43,653 bases of DNA from Clostridia bacterium. Lineage in GTDB: Bacteria; Bacillota; Clostridia; Peptostreptococcales; JAAYPU01. Where the stretch lies: assembly GCA_016278615.1 (NCBI GenBank), contig JADQBM010000007.1, positions 15,890-59,542 on the forward strand, written 5' to 3'. Below the pieces are notes generated by a model. That model was not told the DNA's origin, made no database searches, and saw only the letters and a program-made list of their open reading frames with translations. The position numbers and the translations under genes are program-made. Below, in pieces: positions 4,872-43,653 of the stretch (positions within the stretch are counted from its first letter, which is position 1; each line of letters begins with the position of its first letter).

Positions 4872-5095
4872 AAAAAAAATATAAGTTGAAGTTGAAGTTT
4901 AAGTGAAAACGAAAAAAGAAGTTGTAAGTAGAAGTTGTAGGGGCTGGTCTTGTGCCTGCCCGATAAGGGAAGTTAAGTTTAAGTGTGAGTATTAGTATAA
5001 GTGTAAGTAGAAGTAGAAGTGTAAGTGAACTTACTATTTATTTTTTATTATTTAACTTAAACTAACTCCGAAGGAGTCAATTTATACTTAGTACT
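4872..5095 (+). repeat. 6-nt AAGTNN arrays flanking a REP-like hairpin, upstream of ruvC
   Basis: The argR-ruvC gap holds hexamer arrays of the form AAGTTG/AAGTTT/AAGTAG/AAGTGT. A GC-rich hairpin follows at 4936-4961 (GTAGGGGCTGG...CCTGCCCG), then more AAGTNN units (4970-5030). Near 5060-5095 come inverted ACTTAA units with an ACTCC-GAA-GGAGT hairpin, the same one that forms the 28051-28290 tandem array. No gene is visible. Confidence 0.8.
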
Positions 5096-6212: not shown

Positions 6213-6218
6213 TGAACA

Positions 6219-6412
6219 TTTAAGATTTAGGATTTAGGATTTATGGTTTAAGATTTAAGATTGAAGGAAGGTTTTGTTTCACAAAACCAACGATACATAG
6301 TATATATTGATAATTCCAATTTGAACTTAATTATTGAAGATTTTACTTGGTAAAATCCTCCTTCAATCCTAAATCCTAAATCCTAAATCCTAAATCTTAA
6401 TTGCAAATTGTA
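6219..6412. repeat. Mirror-paired GATTTAG heptamer element between ruvA and ruvB
   Basis: The left array has 7-nt GATTTAG/GATTTAT/GATTTAA units (6219-6262), then the hairpin GGTTTTG-TTTCA-CAAAACC (about 6272-6290). The right side has a hairpin GATTTTAC-TTG-GTAAAATC (about 6339-6358) and inverted CTAAATC heptamers (6364-6402). Same plan as the GATAACA elements, but a different 7-nt unit. It splits ruvA from ruvB and ends just before the ruvB ribosome-binding site. Confidence 0.85.
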
Positions 6413-10185: not shown

Positions 10186-10495
10186 AAGATAGATAATAGA
10201 TAACAGATAATAGATAAGAGTTGAGGTGGATTTTGTTTCACAAAATCTTCATTAGGTTAAATCTAAATATTCTGTTAGAAGAGTAAATAGAAAGATAAGA
10301 GATAACAAAACTGGAAAAGAGATAACTAAGAAAGATAACAGATAATAGATAAGAGTTTAGGATGATTTTGTTCCAAAATCTCCATTAGTGTTAAATCCAA
10401 ACAAGCTATAGTAGATTAATAAATAATAACGAGTTTTGCGCTTAGCAAAACTTTCCTTAACTATTATCTGTTATCTATTATCTTTTATCTAAAAT
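10186..10495. repeat. Three heptamer-array/hairpin units between queA and tgt
   Basis: The 350-base gap has no gene. It contains a forward unit (GATAATA/GATAACA heptamers about 10190-10222, hairpin GATTTTG-TTTCA-CAAAATC about 10231-10249) and a second forward unit (about 10330-10385, hairpin GATTTTG-TTC-CAAAATC). A third, inverted unit follows (hairpin AGTTTTGC-GCTTA-GCAAAACT about 10433-10452, then TTATCTG/TTATCTA heptamers 10459-10492). The inverted array stops about 20 bases before the tgt ribosome-binding site GGAGG. Confidence 0.85.
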
Positions 10496-13654: not shown

Positions 13655-14995
13655 ATGTTTCACAAATATCTTTTCAAGGACAAGCATATTGTCTTGGATA
13701 TAAATAGTGGTGCTGTTCATGTGATTGATAAAATTGTATTTGACATATTGGATATCTATGAAGGTGATAATAAAAATGAAGTTTTTTCTGTATTAAGTAA
13801 TGAATACTCAAAAGATGAGATTTCAGAAGCTATTAGTGAATTGGATTACTTAAAATCCCAAGGTTTGCTTTTTTCTGATGATGTTTATATTTCCAATAAA
13901 GCTAAGGATCCGGTAGTAAAAGCTATTTGCTTACATGTGGCACATGATTGTAATATGAATTGTAAATATTGTTTTGGTTCTCAAGGTTCTTTTGAAGGCA
14001 TTAGAGAATTAATGTCCCTTGATACCGGTATCGCTGCAATTGATTTTCTTATTAAGAATTCAGGCAAAAGAAGAAATCTTGAAGTGGATTTTTTTGGTGG
14101 TGAACCTTTAATGAATTTTGATGTGATTAAAGAAATTGTATCTTATGGAAGAAAAGTAGAAATGAACAATAATAAGAAAATTCGATTCACCATTACGACC
14201 AATGGCATTCTTTTGGATGATGAGAAGATAAACTATATCAATGACAATATGGAAAATGTTATTCTCAGTATAGATGGAAGATTGGAAGTAAATGATAAAA
14301 TGAGACGTACATGGAATGACAAGGGAACTTATGAGTTAATAATCAATAATTATGAAAAATTCATTAATAAAAGAAATGATGGTTTATATTATATCCGAGG
14401 AACTTTTACTAAAGAAAATCTTGATTTCTCGGAGGATGTCAAACACCTCATAAACAAAGGCTTTAAAAATGTCTCTATTGAGCCTGTGGTTGTAAAAGAC
14501 CATGAGGATTATGCGATTAAAATTGAACATTTAGATGCTATTCTCAATGAATATGAAAAGTTGTCCGATCTCTACATAAATAATGCGAAGAATAATCAGA
14601 TGTTCGATTTTTTTCATTTTAATATCGATTTAGAACAGGGTCCCTGTGTCTTTAAAAGAATTTCAGGATGTGGTGCAGGAACGGAATATATGGCTGTTGC
14701 ACCCAATGGTGATTTGTATCCTTGTCATCAATTTGTAGGAAATAATGGTTTGAAAATTGGAAGTGTTTATGATGTGGATTATAGTAATGAGCTTTATGAT
14801 ATTTTTAATAATGCACATATTTATAATAAAGAAAAATGCAGAACCTGCTGGGCAAAGTTCTATTGTAGTGGAGGCTGCCATGCAAATGCCTATCACATGA
14901 ATGGAAATATGTTGGAACCATATGAAATAGGATGTGAAATGGAAAAAAAGAGGATAGAATGTGCCATAGGAATAAAGGCAGTGTTAAGTAAATGA
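13655..14995 (+). CDS. scfB: SCIFF radical SAM maturase with SPASM domain
   Basis: 446 aa, the family length. The N-terminal RiPP-recognition-like region (1-85) is followed by the radical SAM motif CNMNCKYC (C99, C103, C106). The C-terminal SPASM/twitch region holds auxiliary [4Fe-4S] ligands (SGCGAGTEYMAVAPNGDLYPC and CRTCWAKFYCSGGC). It forms sactionine/ranthionine-type thioether links in the scfA product. ATG at 13655 chosen because GGAGG sits seven bases upstream; an in-frame ATG at 13634 precedes that site. The TGA stop lies inside an AATGAAT heptamer array (14991 onwards), so a repeat supplies the end of the gene. Confidence 0.96.
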   Translation: MFHKYLFKDKHIVLDINSGAVHVIDKIVFDILDIYEGDNKNEVFSVLSNEYSKDEISEAISELDYLKSQGLLFSDDVYISNKAKDPVVKAICLHVAHDCNMNCKYCFGSQGSFEGIRELMSLDTGIAAIDFLIKNSGKRRNLEVDFFGGEPLMNFDVIKEIVSYGRKVEMNNNKKIRFTITTNGILLDDEKINYINDNMENVILSIDGRLEVNDKMRRTWNDKGTYELIINNYEKFINKRNDGLYYIRGTFTKENLDFSEDVKHLINKGFKNVSIEPVVVKDHEDYAIKIEHLDAILNEYEKLSDLYINNAKNNQMFDFFHFNIDLEQGPCVFKRISGCGAGTEYMAVAPNGDLYPCHQFVGNNGLKIGSVYDVDYSNELYDIFNNAHIYNKEKCRTCWAKFYCSGGCHANAYHMNGNMLEPYEIGCEMEKKRIECAIGIKAVLSK

Positions 14996-15222
14996 ATAAT
15001 GAATAATGAATAGTGAAGGAAGAAATCTTGCATTGCAAAATTTCCTTGATTGATATTAAGAACAATCATAACGGTTAGAGTTATCCTTATTATGCCGATT
15101 GAATGAGAAAGCTGTAAAAGTTGGTTTTGCTTATAGAATTATTATTCTTGTCACAATGTAGATTTTGCATTGCAAAATCATCCTGCATTATTCATTGTTC
15201 ATTATTAATTCTTAATTAAATA
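14990..15222. repeat. Mirror-paired GAATAAT heptamer element between scfB and the carbonic anhydrase gene
   Basis: The left array has AATGAAT/GAATAAT heptamers (14990-15016), then the hairpin ATCTTGCATTGCAAAAT (about 15025-15042). The right unit has hairpin GATTTTGC-ATT-GCAAAATC (about 15162-15180), then inverted ATTATTC/ATTGTTC heptamers (15186-15210). The middle 100 bases show nothing recognisable. Confidence 0.8.
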
Positions 15223-18526: not shown

Positions 18527-20707
18527 ATGATGTTAGATTTTTTTATTGATGAGATAATTAAATATAATCCAAATACTGATTTGTTACTGATTGAAAAAGC
18601 GTACAATATATCAGAAAAAGCGCACTCAGGACAACTCAGACAATCCGGCGAAGAATATTTCAGTCATCCCATTGAAGTAACCAAAATACTCATTGAACTG
18701 GAAATGGATGATGCTACCATCGTTGCTGGGCTTCTTCATGATGTTTTGGAAGATACAGAGTACAAATATGAAGAATTAAAGCGTGATTTTGGTGAAGAGA
18801 TTGCAATGTTAGTCGAAGGAATCACAAAATTAGGAACTTTGGTCTATGAAAGCAAAGAAGAGCGACAAGCCGAGAACTTGAGAAAGATGTTTTTGGCAAT
18901 GTCAAAGGATATCCGAGTGCTCATTATCAAGCTTGCAGATCGCCTTCACAACATGCGGACCATCAACTATATGAATGAAAAAAAGATTCGCGAAAAGTGT
19001 CTTGAGACTCTTGAAATTTATGCGCCTTTAGCGCATCGATTAGGGATGTCTAAGATAAAATGGGAACTGGAGGATATTTCTTTCAGACATCTCGATCCCA
19101 AAGCGTATTATGAACTATATGAAAAAGTGAAGAAGAAACGTAAAGAAAGAGAAGCTATAATCAATGAAGTAATCGAAGAACTAAAGCCAGAAATAAAGCT
19201 TCATAACATTAGTTTCGAAATCACTGGAAGATCTAAACATTTTTATAGTATTTATAAGAAGATGAAGTATCAGAAAAAAGAATTTGATGAAATATTTGAT
19301 TTAATGGCAGTTAGAATCATTGTGGAATCCATTCGGGATTGTTATGCCGTTTTAGGTATTGTTCATACTTTGTGGAAGCCTATTCCAGGTAGATTCAAAG
19401 ATTATATCGCGATGCCTAAGCCTAACATGTATCAATCCATTCATACCACCGTTATTGGAAAAAATGGTGAACCTTTTGAAATACAAATGAGAACTATGGA
19501 AATGCATAAAATTGCTGAATTTGGGATTGCTGCGCATTGGAAATATAAAGAAGGCAAAAAAGCAACAGATGAATTTGACAATAAATTATCTTGGTTAAGA
19601 CAAATGATGGAATGGCAGAGAGACCTTAAAGACCCTAAAGAATTTATGGAGTCTCTAAAAGTCGATTTATTTTCCAATCAGGTGTTTGTTTTTACGCCAA
19701 AGGGTGAGGTTATTGAGCTTCCTTCTGGATCGACACCCATTGATTTTGCTTATAAAATACATTCAGAAGTAGGAAATCGATGTATAGGTGCCAGAGTTGA
19801 CGGTAAGATGGTTCCTATAGATTTTAAGCTTGCCAATGGGAACATAGTAGAAATCATTACTGCTAGCAATAGCAAAGGTCCCAGTATTGATTGGCTTAAA
19901 ATTGTCAAGAGCACTCAAGCAAAAAATAAAATCAAGCAGTCCCTAAAAAAAGAAGATAAAACAGAAAATATAGATAAAGGCAAAGAGTTGTTAGAGAAAT
20001 ACTTAAGAAGAAAGGGTTATGATACGCAGCAGATTATAAAGCCTCAATGGATAAATAAAGCTGCAAAGCAGTTTGGCCTTAATTCTTCCGAGAATCTTTA
20101 TGCTTCTATTGGGAATGGAAGTATCATGGTAAATAAAGTAGTTCCTAAGCTACAAGATTACTACCGAGAAGAGAAGCAACAAGAGTTGGGACAAAAAGAA
20201 AAATCCGTTTTTTCTGAACATTCCCCAAAACCAAAACGAAAAACAAATGAAACCAGTGGAATAAAAGTTCAAGACGGTGTGGATAATCTATTAATAAGAA
20301 TGTCCAAATGCTGTAATCCAGTACCCGGAGATGAGATTGTAGGGTTTATTACGAAAGGAAGAGGTCTTTCCATTCATAGAAAGGATTGCACCAATATTGT
20401 CAGTGAATACGATACCATTTATAATCGGTTGATAGATGTTGAATGGGATTCAAATAAAGAGGATATTTCATATGAGACAGAGATTAGTATTATAGCCGAA
20501 GATAGAAAAGGGTTTCTCGTAGAAATCACAAGGATTTTTGATGAATTAAACCTAACGGTTACGGGTATTAATGCAAAAAGTGGAAGAGATGTAATTGCTA
20601 CTGTGAATTTAACCATAGAAATAACCAATATTGGACAACTTGATAAAGTAATTAGAAAAATTAAGAATATTGAAGGCGTTATGGATGTTTATAGAGTCAT
20701 ATCATAA
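18527..20707 (+). CDS. relA: Bifunctional (p)ppGpp synthetase/hydrolase Rel
   Basis: 726 aa. The N-terminal HD hydrolase domain retains its ligands (H47, H71-D72, with ED at 75-76), so it should degrade (p)ppGpp. The synthetase domain has GRSKHFYSIYKKM (234-246), FDLMAVRII and the G-loop-like YQSIHTTV, with EIQMRT (318-323) also intact. A TGS domain (about 388-450) and the zinc-finger-like region with CCNPVPGDEIVGF follow, and an ACT domain (about 650-725) closes the protein. It is the stringent-response enzyme that senses uncharged tRNA on ribosomes. The product ends a few bases before a repeat block. Confidence 0.96.
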   Translation: MMLDFFIDEIIKYNPNTDLLLIEKAYNISEKAHSGQLRQSGEEYFSHPIEVTKILIELEMDDATIVAGLLHDVLEDTEYKYEELKRDFGEEIAMLVEGITKLGTLVYESKEERQAENLRKMFLAMSKDIRVLIIKLADRLHNMRTINYMNEKKIREKCLETLEIYAPLAHRLGMSKIKWELEDISFRHLDPKAYYELYEKVKKKRKEREAIINEVIEELKPEIKLHNISFEITGRSKHFYSIYKKMKYQKKEFDEIFDLMAVRIIVESIRDCYAVLGIVHTLWKPIPGRFKDYIAMPKPNMYQSIHTTVIGKNGEPFEIQMRTMEMHKIAEFGIAAHWKYKEGKKATDEFDNKLSWLRQMMEWQRDLKDPKEFMESLKVDLFSNQVFVFTPKGEVIELPSGSTPIDFAYKIHSEVGNRCIGARVDGKMVPIDFKLANGNIVEIITASNSKGPSIDWLKIVKSTQAKNKIKQSLKKEDKTENIDKGKELLEKYLRRKGYDTQQIIKPQWINKAAKQFGLNSSENLYASIGNGSIMVNKVVPKLQDYYREEKQQELGQKEKSVFSEHSPKPKRKTNETSGIKVQDGVDNLLIRMSKCCNPVPGDEIVGFITKGRGLSIHRKDCTNIVSEYDTIYNRLIDVEWDSNKEDISYETEISIIAEDRKGFLVEITRIFDELNLTVTGINAKSGRDVIATVNLTIEITNIGQLDKVIRKIKNIEGVMDVYRVIS

Positions 20708-21056
20708 AGAAAGATAAGAGATAACAGATAAGAGATAAAAGTTGAGGATGATTTTGTTAGCACAAAATCTTTCATTAGTAAAAAGAGATAAGAAAATGTG
20801 TAGGGACGACCCTTGCGGTTGTCCGTAAGACAGAGGACAGATAGAAAAACAGATAAGAGATAACAGACAGTAAAGAAAGATAAAAGACACAATAAAAGAA
20901 AGATAAGAGATAACAGATAAAAGTTAAGGATGATTTTGTTAGCACAAAATCTTCATTGTTAAGGATTGAAAGTTTTGCTTGGCAAAACTATTCCATAACT
21001 CTTATCTCTTATCTATTATCTATTATCTATTATCTCTTATCTCTTATCTAACCAAG
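20706..21056. repeat. Three heptamer-array/hairpin units plus a REP-like hairpin between rel and dtd
   Basis: The 370-base gap has no gene. Forward unit 1: GATAAGA/GATAACA heptamers (20710-20740), hairpin GATTTTG-TTAGCA-CAAAATC (about 20751-20769). REP-like hairpin GTAGGGACGACC...GGTTGTCC (about 20801-20824), then GGACAGA-type units. Forward unit 2: heptamers about 20900-20925, hairpin GATTTTG-TTAGCA-CAAAATC (about 20932-20951). Inverted unit 3: hairpin AGTTTTGC-TTG-GCAAAACT (about 20971-20989), then many TTATCTC/TTATCTA units to 21050. Units 1 and 2 are near-identical over about 50 bases, so they look like recent copies. Confidence 0.85.
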
Positions 21057-22164: not shown

Positions 22165-22169
22165 AATCA

Positions 22170-22235
22170 ATGAATAATGAATAATGAATAATGAATAATG
22201 AAGGTGGATTTTGTTTCTCAAAATCTTCATTAAAC
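22170..22235 (+). repeat. Single GAATAAT heptamer array with GATTTTG hairpin
   Basis: Four near-perfect GAATAAT units (22170-22199), then GAAGGTG and the hairpin GATTTTG-TTTCT-CAAAATC (about 22207-22225) and TTCATTA. Here there is no inverted partner; the esterase ribosome-binding site follows directly. Confidence 0.85.
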
Positions 22236-22831: not shown

Positions 22832-22950
22832 TAAGATAAGAGATAAGAGTTAGTTTTGCTAAGCAAAACTTTCACTCCTTATCAATGTAGATTTTGTGAT
22901 AACAAAATCATCCTCAACTGTTATCTATTATCTGTTATCTATTATCTTTC
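22832..22950. repeat. Mirror-paired heptamer element before hemZ
   Basis: Short forward unit (GATAAGA, then hairpin AGTTTTGC-TAA-GCAAAACT, about 22850-22870). The inverted unit has hairpin GATTTTGT-GAT-AACAAAATC (about 22890-22909), then CTCAACTG and TTATCTA/TTATCTG heptamers to 22948. Thereafter CTGTCTGTCCCCTG (about 22956-22970) resembles the inverted GGGACAG units seen at 43507. Confidence 0.8.
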
Positions 22951-22994: not shown

Positions 22995-24500
22995 ATGCTG
23001 TATGTATATATCAATGAGAGTGGATTCAGATATGAAGTTGAGGAATTGATTAAGCTGTTCATTCCCTGGTCTGATTTTGAATTTATTGAACAAGAAGAAG
23101 GAATTCAGAATAAAAGCTTTTTATTAAGCAGTTTCATTTCCTATGATAAGGGAAATGTTGGAATTTCTTCAGAACTCACTAAAGATGGCAAAAAAATTGA
23201 CTATGTTTCAACACCACAAGTGATGGACCATTGTGAAAATGTCACCAGGAAAGAAATTAAGGAGGGCGTTAAGAGGTCAGTTTTTTTAATACTTCGGCGG
23301 TTATATGATTATACACCACCTTGGGGAATTTTGACTGGTGTAAGACCCACAAAAATTGTCAATGAAATGATAGAAGCAAAGTTTTCACATGAAGAAATCC
23401 GAAAGAAACTTAATGGATTGTATTATATTGATTCGGAAAAAATCAATCTGTTGTTTAATGTGTGTAACAATGAGAAAGATATTTTATCGACGGGATCTGT
23501 TAAAGAGATCAGTTTGTATATTGGCATACCCTTTTGCCCTACAAAGTGTACTTATTGTTCCTTTACTTCATATCCTGCCCAAATAGATCGTATGAACCAG
23601 TATCTCGAAGCTTTAATTCAAGAAATTATTTTTGTGGGCAATGAACTCATAAACACTGAATTAAAAATTGAGACTCTTTACATTGGTGGAGGGACCCCAA
23701 CGGCTTTGACAGTAAATCAATTAAATAGGTTACTAATTCAGGCAAGAGAATCCTTTGAGCTAAACGATTTAAAAGAATATACTGTGGAATGTGGGCGGCC
23801 GGATACCATTACAAGTGAAAAACTAAAGATTATGAAGTCCTTCGGAGTTAATCGTATTAGCATTAACCCTCAATCCATGAATGAAAAAACCCTGGTTGAA
23901 ATAGGTCGAAATCATACACCTGAGGAAATTAAGGAGGCTTTCTATTTAGCTCGAAAATATGGATTCCATAATATAAATATGGATTTGATTGCGGGATTAC
24001 CCAATGAAACACCAGTGGATTTTAATTACTCAATAAATGCTTTGATTCAGATGGAACCGGAAAATATTACAGTACATACGTTAGCCATAAAAAGAGCGTC
24101 TAAATTGAAGAAAATAAGGGAAGAATACAGTTATTATATAGGGGAAGAGGCAATATCGGATATGCTTGAAATATCCTCATCACTTTTACATCAGTACTCA
24201 TATGAACCCTATTACATGTATCGGCAAAAATATATGTCTGGAAACTATGAAAATGTGGGTTATTGTAAGAATGCGACCCAGTGTATTTATAATATTCGTA
24301 TTATGGAAGAGAAGCAAACCATAATCGCCTTAGGTGCCGGTGGCATTTCAAAAGTTTTCTATCCTTTGGAAAATAGGTTGGAGCGTGTCCCAAATGTATC
24401 CAATTATGAGGTTTACATTGAAAGAATTCAAGAAATGATAGAGCGTAAAAAGAATTTGATTTTTGCAAATATTGACAACAAAATTAGTAATACATTATAA
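22995..24500 (+). CDS. hemZ: HemZ, radical SAM coproporphyrinogen III dehydrogenase-like protein
   Basis: 501 aa. The N-terminal clostridial/bacillar extension (1-165) includes TPPWGILTGVRPTKIV, typical of HemZ. The radical SAM motif CPTKCTYCSF gives C181, C185 and C188, followed by the GGGTPT SAM-binding motif and the HemN_C-type region near the C-terminus. HemN enzymes convert coproporphyrinogen III to protoporphyrinogen IX without oxygen, but whether HemZ does so is uncertain, and many of its carriers are poor in heme genes. ATG at 22995 has AGAGG upstream. A longer in-frame ATG at 22896 would translate the repeat array and is rejected. Confidence 0.93.
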   Translation: MLYVYINESGFRYEVEELIKLFIPWSDFEFIEQEEGIQNKSFLLSSFISYDKGNVGISSELTKDGKKIDYVSTPQVMDHCENVTRKEIKEGVKRSVFLILRRLYDYTPPWGILTGVRPTKIVNEMIEAKFSHEEIRKKLNGLYYIDSEKINLLFNVCNNEKDILSTGSVKEISLYIGIPFCPTKCTYCSFTSYPAQIDRMNQYLEALIQEIIFVGNELINTELKIETLYIGGGTPTALTVNQLNRLLIQARESFELNDLKEYTVECGRPDTITSEKLKIMKSFGVNRISINPQSMNEKTLVEIGRNHTPEEIKEAFYLARKYGFHNINMDLIAGLPNETPVDFNYSINALIQMEPENITVHTLAIKRASKLKKIREEYSYYIGEEAISDMLEISSSLLHQYSYEPYYMYRQKYMSGNYENVGYCKNATQCIYNIRIMEEKQTIIALGAGGISKVFYPLENRLERVPNVSNYEVYIERIQEMIERKKNLIFANIDNKISNTL

Positions 24501-24550
24501 TTAAATGGTATACTTAAAATAACGGTTATATAAAAGTGTAATAATCCAAT

Positions 24551-24603
24551 AGGGCGGCACGATCATACTTCTTGTCCCTGACTACGGGATGTAGAAGTTT
24601 TTG
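24551..24603 (+). promoter_or_regulatory. T-box-like antiterminator/terminator remnant upstream of hisS
   Basis: AGGGCGGCAC (24551-24560) resembles the T-box core AGGGTGGNAC. A distal TCCCT (24575-24579) could pair with AGGG as in an antiterminator. The same TCCC alternatively pairs with GGGA in ACTTCT-TGTCCC...GGGATGT-AGAAGT (24567-24598), followed by five Ts, a T-box-type terminator. But only about 50 bases separate it from the hemZ stop, too few for Stem I and its specifier loop. The tRNA-pairing TGGN is changed to CGGC. I read it as a decayed, 5'-truncated T-box. Confidence 0.45.
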
Positions 24604-24862
24604 TATTTAGCAGTAGAAATTTACAAATACAAGATTTGTGATTTCCTTGCATAAGTTCGCTTACAATTTGTTTCACAAATTGAGCGAGCTAGTAGCAGTA
24701 GAAATCTACAAATACAAGATTTGGTCGGCTACGTAATCTAAATCAAAGATTTAGACTACGCGACATCTGACCTACGACACAATCGAAGATTGTTGTTAGG
24801 TCATTATGATTTCTTTGCATAAGTTCACCATCTATTTATTTCATAAATTTGGTGAGCTAATA
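24601..24862 (+). repeat. Hairpin-rich leader region of hisS with duplicated modules
   Basis: No gene. Module A (GCAGTAGAAAT[T/C]TACAAATACAAGATTT) occurs at about 24610 and 24695. Module B (TGATTTC[C/T]TTGCATAAGTTC, an AT hairpin, then GAGCTA) occurs at about 24638-24691 and 24809-24860. The B hairpins differ in sequence but both fold: CAATTTG-TTTCA-CAAATTG and TTCACC...ATTTAT-TTC-ATAAAT...GGTGA. Between the copies are TCTAAATC-AAA-GATTTAGA (24738-24756) and GACCTA...ACAATC-GAA-GATTGT...TAGGTC (24770-24803). The second B copy ends just before the hisS ribosome-binding site. Confidence 0.75.
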
Positions 24863-24879
24863 AACAGGAGGGACTTAAT

Positions 24880-26139
24880 ATGCTTACACAGGCACCAAGA
24901 GGAACCCGGGATATACTCCCAGAACAAGTTAGCAAGTGGATTTATGTTGAAAATAAGTTTAGAGATATATGTGCAAAATATGGCTTTGAGGAAATTCGAA
25001 CGCCATTATTTGAGCATACAGAATTATTTAAACGTGGGGTAGGGGAAACAACTGATATTGTAGAGAAACAGATGTATTCTTTTGATGATAATGGTGGAAG
25101 AAATATTACTCTAAAAGCGGAAGGGACAGCTCCAGTCGTACGGGCATATGTGGAAAACAAATTATATGCGAATCCTCAACCTTTAAAATTGTATTACATA
25201 ACACCGTGTTATCGTTATGAAAGACCCCAAGCAGGAAGGTTAAGGGAGTTTCATCAATTTGGAGTTGAAGTCTTCGGGACCAACAACCCTCTGGCAGATG
25301 CAGAGGTCATTGGTGTTGCTGTGGACCTTTTTGACGAATTGGGCGTTAAAAACCTTGAAGTTAGAATCAATAGTATTGGGTGCCCTGATTGTAGAAAGGA
25401 ACATAGAAAAGCATTAACGGAGTTTCTAACAGATAAACTTGATTTGTTGTGTGAAACCTGTAAAGGCAGGTTTGATCGAAATCCCATGAGGATATTGGAC
25501 TGTAAAAATGAAAGCTGTCAGGCGAATGTTATAAATGCTCCGAGAATGATGGAATATCTATGTGAATCATGTGCCAGTGATTTTGATGTTTTGCAAAGAA
25601 ATCTCAAGGCTATGGAAATAGATTATATAATAGATCCTGATATTGTAAGAGGTTTAGATTATTATACTAAAACTGCTTTTGAAATTGTTTCGAAAGAAAT
25701 AGGGGCACAGGGCACCGTTTGTGGTGGTGGGCGATATGATAATTTAGTTGAAGAAATTGGTGGGCCATCCACACCAGGCGTTGGCTTTGGGTTGGGAATT
25801 GAAAGACTTTTGCTTTCTCTTGAAAATAATGACGTTGAGATAGAAAAAAGAGATTCAACAGATGTATTTATAGCTGTCTTAGGGGAAGAACCTGAGAAAG
25901 TAGCCATTAAGTTATTAAGGGATTTAAGATGTATTGGTATAAAAGGACAGATGGATTTATTGGGTAGAAGTCTAAAATCACAATTCAAATATGCAGATAA
26001 GCTAAAAGCGCCTTTTACAATTGTAATAGGCGAAGATGAATTAAAAGAGAATTGTGTAGTGTTAAAAGATATGAAGAACTCGGAACAAAAGAAGATTGAA
26101 ATTAATAATGTTATTCAAGAGGTAAAAACAAGGCTTTGA
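24880..26139 (+). CDS. hisS: Histidyl-tRNA synthetase
   Basis: 419 aa class II synthetase. Marks: N-terminal PRGTRDILPEQ, motif 1 near residue 40-60, motif 2 CYRYERPQAGRLREFHQFGVE (as two parts around residue 110-130), the HisA motif GLDYYTKTAFE near 262 and motif 3 GFGLGIERLLLSL. A Cys-rich insert (CPDC, CETC, CESC, about 167-235) typical of clostridial HisRS is present and may bind metal. Strong ribosome-binding site AGGAGGG. It is followed by aspS after 20 bases; hisS-aspS is a standard Firmicute operon, often T-box controlled. Confidence 0.97.
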   Translation: MLTQAPRGTRDILPEQVSKWIYVENKFRDICAKYGFEEIRTPLFEHTELFKRGVGETTDIVEKQMYSFDDNGGRNITLKAEGTAPVVRAYVENKLYANPQPLKLYYITPCYRYERPQAGRLREFHQFGVEVFGTNNPLADAEVIGVAVDLFDELGVKNLEVRINSIGCPDCRKEHRKALTEFLTDKLDLLCETCKGRFDRNPMRILDCKNESCQANVINAPRMMEYLCESCASDFDVLQRNLKAMEIDYIIDPDIVRGLDYYTKTAFEIVSKEIGAQGTVCGGGRYDNLVEEIGGPSTPGVGFGLGIERLLLSLENNDVEIEKRDSTDVFIAVLGEEPEKVAIKLLRDLRCIGIKGQMDLLGRSLKSQFKYADKLKAPFTIVIGEDELKENCVVLKDMKNSEQKKIEINNVIQEVKTRL

Positions 26140-27940: not shown

Positions 27941-28046
27941 AGTTGAAGTTTAAGTATGAGTATAAGGGTAAGTAAAAGATAACAGATAAAAGATAATAGA
28001 TAATAGTTATGGTGGATTTCGTTTCACAAAATCTTCAATTTAAACT
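27941..28046 (+). repeat. Mixed hexamer and heptamer array with hairpin after aspS
   Basis: AAGTNN hexamers (27941-27972) pass directly into GATAACA/GATAAAA/GATAATA heptamers (27976-28003), then GTGGATTTCG-TTTCA-CAAAATC, a hairpin with one mismatch (about 28012-28032). This block joins the hexamer and heptamer classes in one array, suggesting that they belong to the same system. Confidence 0.8.
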
Positions 28047-28050
28047 TAAA

Positions 28051-28290
28051 CTACTCCGAAGGAGTACATTTAAACTTAATACTTTGATTACTACTCCGAA
28101 GGAGTCCACTCAAACTTAACACTTAAATACTACTCCGAAGGAGTCCACTCAAACTTAACACTTAAATACTACTCCGAAGGAGTCCACTTAAACTTAACAC
28201 TTAATCACTACTCCAAAGGAGTCCACTTAAACTTGACACTTTGATCACTACTCCGAAGGAGTCTACTCAAACTTAACACTTGAATTAATG
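28051..28290 (+). repeat. Six tandem copies of a 39-40 bp minisatellite upstream of nadD
   Basis: Copies begin at 28051, 28091, 28130, 28169, 28208 and 28248. Each contains CTACTCCGAAGGAGT (a 5-bp stem with GAA loop) and then an ACTTAA-type hexamer stretch (CACTCAAACTTAACACTT). The intervals are near-identical between copies, so it is a tandem repeat and not a CRISPR. The same hairpin occurs once near 5064. The array ends about 12 bases before the nadD start; the run GGTGGTGG is the likely ribosome-binding site. Confidence 0.9.
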
Positions 28291-36171: not shown

Positions 36172-36248
36172 TTGATTTAATATTTAGGATTTAAAATTTA
36201 TGGTAGATTTTGCATAGGCAAAATTCCTAGTCTCTAATCTCTAATAAC
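36172..36248. repeat. Short heptamer/hairpin element before mltG
   Basis: GATTTAA/TATTTAG/GATTTAA heptamers (36174-36196), a hairpin GATTTTGC-ATAG-GCAAAAT (about 36206-36226) and two inverted TAATCTC-like units (about 36233-36247). A reduced version of the 6219-6412 element, and it ends at the mltG ribosome-binding site. Confidence 0.7.
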
Positions 36249-43506: not shown

Positions 43507-43653
43507 GGGACAGGGAACAGGTGACAGGTGACAGGGGACAGAAAAGATTAGAGATGTGTAGGGACGACCCTTGCGGTTGTCCTCGAGAAGGGATTAGCGA
43601 TTAGAGATGTGTAGGGACGACCCTTGCGGTTGTCCTCGAGAAGGGATTAGCGA
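43507..43653 (+). repeat. GGTGACA heptamers and a 53-bp tandem duplication after spoIIIAC
   Basis: Five 7-nt units GGGACAG, GGAACAG, GTGACAG, GTGACAG, GGGACAG (43507-43541). Then two copies of a 53-bp unit (from 43546 and 43599), each with GATTAGA/GATTAGC heptamers and the REP-like hairpin GTAGGGACGACC-CTTGC-GGTTGTCC. The second copy runs off the window end, so more may follow. Confidence 0.85.

Follow-up and report, generated by a model that had tools for sequence, protein, structure and literature searches.

What are the short tandem arrays, each followed by a link and a small hairpin, that recur between genes along this clostridial DNA (hereafter the window, meaning the whole stretch of 43,653 nucleotides that was analyzed)? 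The original prediction proposed either an RNA-processing or transcript-stability element or a non-autonomous element mobilized in trans. The array, link and hairpin are present at all nine places listed in that prediction, and together they form one half of a larger inverted unit, in which a heptamer arm is followed by a TTRAGG-type link and a hairpin and then, past a spacer, by a second hairpin, a second link and an arm in inverted orientation. The copies in the window, placed with a covariance model of half-units, are the following.

2406–2589, unstranded: complete unit between convergent ORFs, its spacer a 35-bp terminator-like hairpin (2481–2515).
6218–6396, unstranded: complete unit, GATTTAR class.
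10187–10256, plus strand: half-unit, GATAAN class.
10333–10490, unstranded: complete unit, GATAAN class.
14991–15217, unstranded: complete unit, TGAANAA class, left hairpin imperfect.
20712–20773, plus strand: half-unit with GATAAN arm, link AGTTGAGG and hairpin GATTTTG..CAAAATC (model E 2.5e-11).
20901–21049, unstranded: complete unit with arms at 20901–20929 and 20993–21049 and hairpins at 20932–20951 and 20971–20989 (model E 4.2e-13 and 7.6e-11).
22169–22225, plus strand: half-unit, TGAANAA class.
22834–22947, unstranded: complete unit, GATAAN class.
27977–28033, plus strand: half-unit, GATAAN class, with the imperfect stem GATTTCG/CAAAATC.
36174–36245, plus strand: degenerate unit with a GATTTAR-like left arm.

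With a cut-off of E<1e-6 the model returned 17 rows across the window, and with E<=0.1 it returned 25, counts that come from a model trained partly on window copies and whose weaker rows include opposite-strand overlaps. Window copies are intergenic and none lies within 23S rRNA; no unit encloses an ORF of at least 100 aa, no copy holds a gene of the 23S_rRNA_IVP family (IVP, discussed below), and Rfam at gathering score yielded zero matches in the window. Predicted RNA folds of two complete units are strong, at -42.9 kcal/mol (z -5.8) for 20887–21051 and -90.6 kcal/mol (z -16.2) for 2405–2591. The stems named at the outset, GATTTTG, GGTTTTG, AGTTTTGC and GATTTTAC, are confirmed in the window, with the exception of CAATTTG/CAAATTG, which was seen as a short hairpin solely at 24664–24682, in a gap without a visible heptamer array, and belongs to another repeat.

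The inverted layout was characterized in a 1.165-Mb sample of G000, the 3.5-Mb genome that contains the window, and compared with G001 and G002, two other genomes of the same bacterial family (three genera in all). Neighboring half-units within 200 bp of each other mostly face inward (56 pairs, against 6 facing outward and 4 and 1 in tandem on the plus and minus strands), and the two arms of a facing pair carry the same heptamer class in 52 of 56 cases, where shuffling gives a mean of 27.9 and a maximum of 40 in 10,000 trials. In the first 410 kb of G000, where classes were assigned by eye and 5 of 77 sites had been removed as spurious before pairing, agreement is complete (25/25). The heptamer word thus varies from element to element and agrees within one element. 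Arms mostly comprise three to six heptamers, mainly the words GATAANA (GATAAN class), AATGAAN (TGAANAA class) and GATTTAR, and because the arm period is seven, the stop codons that these words contain fall in all three frames when read from outside to inside (by eye). No target site duplication was noticed at the units by eye.

Heptamers of the GATAAN class have one almost free position, the other six being 87–99% conserved, and neighboring heptamers do not share the variable base (56/180, against 28% expected), whereas neighbors share it above expectation in the TGAANAA class (44/89 versus 35%) and the GATTTAR class (20/32 versus 49%). In-register pairing of the variable base from arm to arm was found neither for GATAAN (18/68 against a null mean of 34%, p 0.95) nor for TGAANAA (12/32 against 34%, p 0.33). 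At the foot of the hairpin, half-units lack a fixed tetranucleotide of the GTAG/GGAG type, the bases after AGG being variable (9 of 65 half-units were left out before this inspection). Period seven predominates: the G000 sample holds 77 inverted period-7 pairs spaced 10–400 bp apart, compared with 14 at period 5, 5 at period 6 and none at each of periods 8–11, and the G001 sample holds 16 at period 7, 2 at period 5 and none at the remaining periods. Two Nostoc plasmids, 50 kb of each, contain 2 and 4 inverted period-7 pairs and none at other periods; one of these six pairs encloses an annotated four-helix-bundle gene.

Other repeats share the window with these units. Hexamer arrays (TATAAG, CTTACA, AAGTGT) at 1–271 and 4883–5085 face each other around G+C-rich hairpins and are possibly a period-6 counterpart, to be set beside the five inverted period-6 pairs of the G000 sample. 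Six copies of a 39-bp tandem unit, containing an ACTCCGAAGGAGT hairpin and ACTTAA-like words, occupy 28050–28285, at the place expected of a right arm. The REP-like repeat GTAGGGACGACCCTTGCGGTTGTCC has three copies, at 20800–20824 and 43546–43653, and also flanks a short gene for a REP-associated tyrosine transposase (RAYT) at another locus (L035); the window closes with a perfect tandem repeat of 53 bp, which makes up its last 108 bases. Another dispersed repeat, distinct from the units and containing pieces like CAATTTGTTTCACAAATTG and TTTCCTTGCATAAGTTCGC, lies at 24490–24890, and a relative of it, CTATTTG/CAAATAG, was seen in a gap of G002.

Association of array and hairpin is well above chance. 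In 410 kb of sequence, 78 of 113 array ends, chosen blind to the hairpin, have a stem of 6 bp or more in the 32 nt that follow; the rate is about 5.5% after the bases are shuffled and 4.7% for 32-mers drawn at random from the genome. A reversed-sequence control informs on the AGG motif only (77 versus 2); because reversal keeps the periodicity, it is silent on the association itself. Covariation was examined in 56 aligned half-units that had been picked for possessing a stem. Cells with a double change number 62 against 21.6 in shuffles, and the covariation score is 0.330 against 0.171, neither being reached in 500 shuffles, but two other counts are unexceptional, that of pairs showing a double change (5 versus 3.5, with 59/500 shuffles as high) and that of further pair types (10 versus 10.3, with 385/500 as high). 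The original prediction that compensatory change implies selection is only partly borne out: two of the measures are unexceptional, a few stem families dominate the half-units and unrelated stems also occur, a pattern that fits copying and replacement as well, and stem covariation is in part copying of founder stems. Between copies the compensation is genuine, although the count of independent events is uncertain.

The repeats extend far beyond the window: half-units are found in the G000 sample and in G001 and G002, at a density of 165/Mb in the G000 sample, which extrapolates to about 580 in the whole genome, and 45/Mb in the G001 sample. The covariance model matched 99 times in G000 (the number scored) and 80 and 93 times in the two relatives, compared with a single weak match (E 0.006) among 57 other genomes of the order. 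An exact-pattern search returned nothing from viral contigs and two loci from named genomes; one of the two (L087) lies in a coding region and, judged by eye, matches by chance. The copied unit ends mostly near the ends of the arms. In the G000 sample, 471 pairs of elements, drawn from 54 of the 56 elements, can be aligned through both hairpins, and their similarity continues beyond the hairpins for a median of 41 and 42 bp on the two sides (90th percentiles 68 and 65), approximately the length of link plus arm; it runs more than 80 bp past a hairpin on one side in 22 of the 471.

A search for genes lying between facing arms gave three candidates, one of them convincing: at G000:C77:6409–6858 an IVP gene (PF05635, E 1.6e-27) is enclosed by a complete unit that includes link and hairpins. 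Relatives of the window units enclose IVP on two G000 contigs, C77 and C37, and by eye all ten IVP matches in the three family genomes sit among heptamer arms. In a scripted test that compares the left flank with the reverse complement of the right flank and requires at least 17 matches in 21, nine of the ten pass and the tenth, a fragment (L238), scores 15. Control ORFs of 300–600 nt lie in matched arms in 3 of 147 cases in G000 and 0 of 143 in G001, no IVP locus passed when the test was run with periods 5, 6 and 8–11, and flanks mismatched between different IVP loci pass in 26/812 and 14/182 combinations. Inward-facing matches of the half-unit model flank IVP on both sides at three loci (L229, L234, L236) and more weakly at two (L233, L231); they flank it on one side only at three (L235, L237, L238), and at E<0.05 on neither side at L230 and L232. 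At L234 (G000:C101) the IVP gene is flanked by two complete, similar TGAANAA-class units. The IVP of L229 matches two solved structures, 2gsc (E 3.8e-19) and 2rld (E 1.8e-8), both deposited as uncharacterized. We know of no enzyme activity for IVP, which is probably related to Avd, a protein of diversity-generating retroelements.

Around IVP genes, arms of this type were seen in four phyla. Elsewhere in the phylum, in other families, 14 of 29 IVP loci pass the scripted test, 18 reach at least 16 matches and 11 are without inverted arms in that test, these 29 being the top loci from 29 genomes that scored high among the 56 with a match. On named plasmids from three other phyla, 12 of 14 loci pass (14 of 29 matched records were examined), comprising 10 of 12 cyanobacterial loci together with those of Riemerella and Azospirillum; the two that fail are Stanieria, with a score of 16, and Picosynechococcus, with 0. 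Some loci in these counts are non-independent, Trichormus and Scytonema being nearly identical and L252 and L254 coming from genomes of one genus. On three cyanobacterial plasmids (L268, L272, L278) IVP lies between cas6 and cas4 (two records) or between cas10 and a Cmr3-family gene (one record). Three of the elements are inserts in structural RNA genes: IVP elements interrupt the 23S rRNA gene at L256 and in Azospirillum (L281), and the RNase P RNA gene at L265, and at L256 and L265 the arms sit at the borders of the inserted element (by eye, in the latter case with an RNase P RNA alignment). It could be argued that such arms are generic and that IVP genes inserted into them; however, at the rRNA and RNase P RNA genes the insert contains both the arms and the IVP gene. 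By eye, the small hairpin was noticed as a regular part only in the family of G000, and the trait shared elsewhere is the inverted heptamer arms.

Terminal arms shared with a gene-bearing element were seen for two window classes, TGAANAA (L234) and GATTTAR (L235, L236), whereas GATAAN arms, which are the most frequent in the window and the ones present in the focal stretch (20706–21056), stand beside none of the ten IVP loci of the family. The connection of GATAAN units to IVP is thus made through the link, hairpin and layout that the three classes have in common. With this in mind, we regard the repeats as ORF-less, MITE-like relatives of the IVP-encoding mobile elements known as intervening sequences (IVSs) in rRNA, a reading to which we assign a probability of roughly 0.65. 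The earlier statement that no named family fits does not hold, since in kind the arms match those of IVS/IVP elements. The idea of a non-autonomous mobile element is well supported by the abundance of half-units, by similarity that ends near the arms and by the gene-bearing relatives in rRNA and RNase P RNA, and mobilization by IVP, the candidate partner, is what we infer from the association. A role in RNA processing is plausible by analogy with the removal of IVSs by RNase III.

Gene-bearing members consist of arms enclosing a 23S_rRNA_IVP gene, and members of the window kind of arms enclosing no more than a short spacer with, in this bacterial family, the TTRAGG-type link and the small hairpin next to each arm. 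In the mechanism that we propose, the arms, once transcribed, would zip into a stem of very roughly 20–40 bp, long enough for RNase III, which can cut stems of that size, and the element may thereby be cut out or tolerated. IVP, or something travelling with it, might recognize the folded arms and spread both forms. Removal from the transcript would make insertion tolerable, which is in line with the distribution of units in G000, where divergent gaps are under-used (5 of 109 placed units versus 21% of intergenic bases) and convergent gaps over-used (28 of 109 versus 15%). A total absence from divergent gaps (0/41), seen at first, was overturned by the larger G000 sample that gave these figures.

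This distribution, together with the two strong folds, would also be expected of an RNA element at transcript 3' ends that the host uses for stability or processing, and that is selected rather than primarily mobile. Conservation of position can be read in the same way: among 251 gaps between adjacent orthologs of G000 and G001, 28 carry arrays in both genomes, 16 in G000 only, 8 in G001 only and 199 in neither (p 7e-19), and when both gaps are at least 40 bp the counts are 28, 14, 8 and 53 (p 4e-8), an association confounded by gap length and insertion tolerance. In the gap between relA and dtd, a GATAA-type unit is visible by eye in all three family genomes. However, the best heptamer class is identical in only 11 of the 28 shared gaps (manual count), and divergent gaps are hardly avoided in G001 (6 of 38 placed units versus 20% of bases). 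Insertion tolerance at transcript ends also accounts for the pattern, and a host-used element does not predict the link to IVP; we consider such an element unlikely. Far less credible still is that neutral slippage produced arrays that lie beside hairpins by chance. Heptamer over-representation has been attributed to polymerase slippage in the available part of a report on Xanthomonas and Nostoc heptamers (PMC4692102), and the sharing of the variable base between neighboring heptamers makes slippage partly compatible with the TGAANAA and GATTTAR classes, but it is unsupported for the GATAAN class, whose neighbors do not share that base while the other six positions are conserved. Nor does it account for matched inverted arms, the predominance of period seven or the recurrent link and hairpin.

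The remaining alternative is that the units are REPIN/BIME-like elements moved by a RAYT, with the heptamers as accessory arms. Topology speaks for this, as inverted hairpin doublets with compensatory change are described for REPINs in the available part of PMC3116915, and G000 has six Y1_Tnp matches, two of these genes being flanked by GTAGGG-type REPs (by eye). One such locus, L036 (G000:C101), lies near degenerate arms; its short RAYT gene is flanked on either side by GTAGGG-type REPs and itself contains a REP-like hairpin (by eye). Against it, the REPs that adjoin RAYTs in G000 differ in sequence from the units, the units lack the fixed GTAG/GGAG tetranucleotide of REPINs, and none of the 14 RAYT loci (Y1_Tnp matches) in the three family genomes is bracketed by matched inverted heptamer arms, on which grounds the RAYT was rejected as main mobilizer and a REPIN-like origin appears improbable. 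A reverse transcriptase acting in trans was likewise discarded: G000 and G002 have one RVT_1 match each and G001 has none, so that an RNA route via a host reverse transcriptase would not be general.

Returning to the IVS/IVP relationship, we propose more tentatively, and at rather less than even odds, that inverted arms of degenerate heptamers define a single mobile-element superfamily that lacks a known transposase and whose signature gene is IVP. If so, it would include rRNA IVSs, RNase P RNA inserts, dispersed gene-less copies, and the heptamer arrays, long without an explanation, of cyanobacteria and other bacteria. If arms mark the ends of elements, copies could be delimited by computer and gene-less copies counted, and mobility could be tested in laboratory cyanobacteria or by comparison of strains; intergenic heptamer arrays would also gain an explanation other than slippage.

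Several known systems resemble the units in part. The small dispersed repeats of Nostoc, reportedly characterized by Elhai et al. in 2008, are said to be small covarying hairpins inside tandem heptamers; they differ from the present units in belonging to another phylum and are not known to have been linked to IVP. Degenerate heptamers also make up the GGGANTN-type arrays of Xanthomonas and Nostoc (PMC4692102), which in Xanthomonas come mostly in fours and are in part inverted, and the TDNGATT/NNTGAGT repeats of Nostoc trnL P6b (PMC4476775); in the available portions of these two papers, the heptamers are treated as G-quadruplex repeats or intron-stem repeats, not as element ends. In the literature searched, of which subscription journals formed little part, no paper was found tying dispersed heptamer arrays to IVP. 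With REPIN/BIME repeats and their RAYTs, as far as the accessible text of PMC3116915 and PMC3733652 describes them, the units have in common an inverted doublet of small hairpins, many extragenic copies and compensatory stem changes; they differ in their heptamer arms, in having no fixed tetranucleotide, and in that they bracket none of the 14 RAYT loci.

The closest likeness is to IVSs of 23S rRNA with IVP/S23p. According to the accessible text of PMC4990558, the 5' end of the Coxiella IVS carries three tandem heptamers and a degenerate fourth, with variation between strains, its terminal stem measures 28 bp, and RNase III excises it; function and origin were in 2016 described there as still unclear after more than 25 years, with a mobile-element hypothesis quoted. 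IVSs without an ORF have been described as well (PMC2672173, in the part available). Window copies differ from these IVSs in being intergenic rather than in 23S rRNA, in lacking an IVP/S23p gene or other ORF, in numbering hundreds (by extrapolation) and in having an extra link and hairpin at the inner ends of the arms. They share with them terminal inverted arms that can form a stem and that consist of tandem heptamers, and the gene-bearing relatives of the window units, in the same genome, encode IVP.
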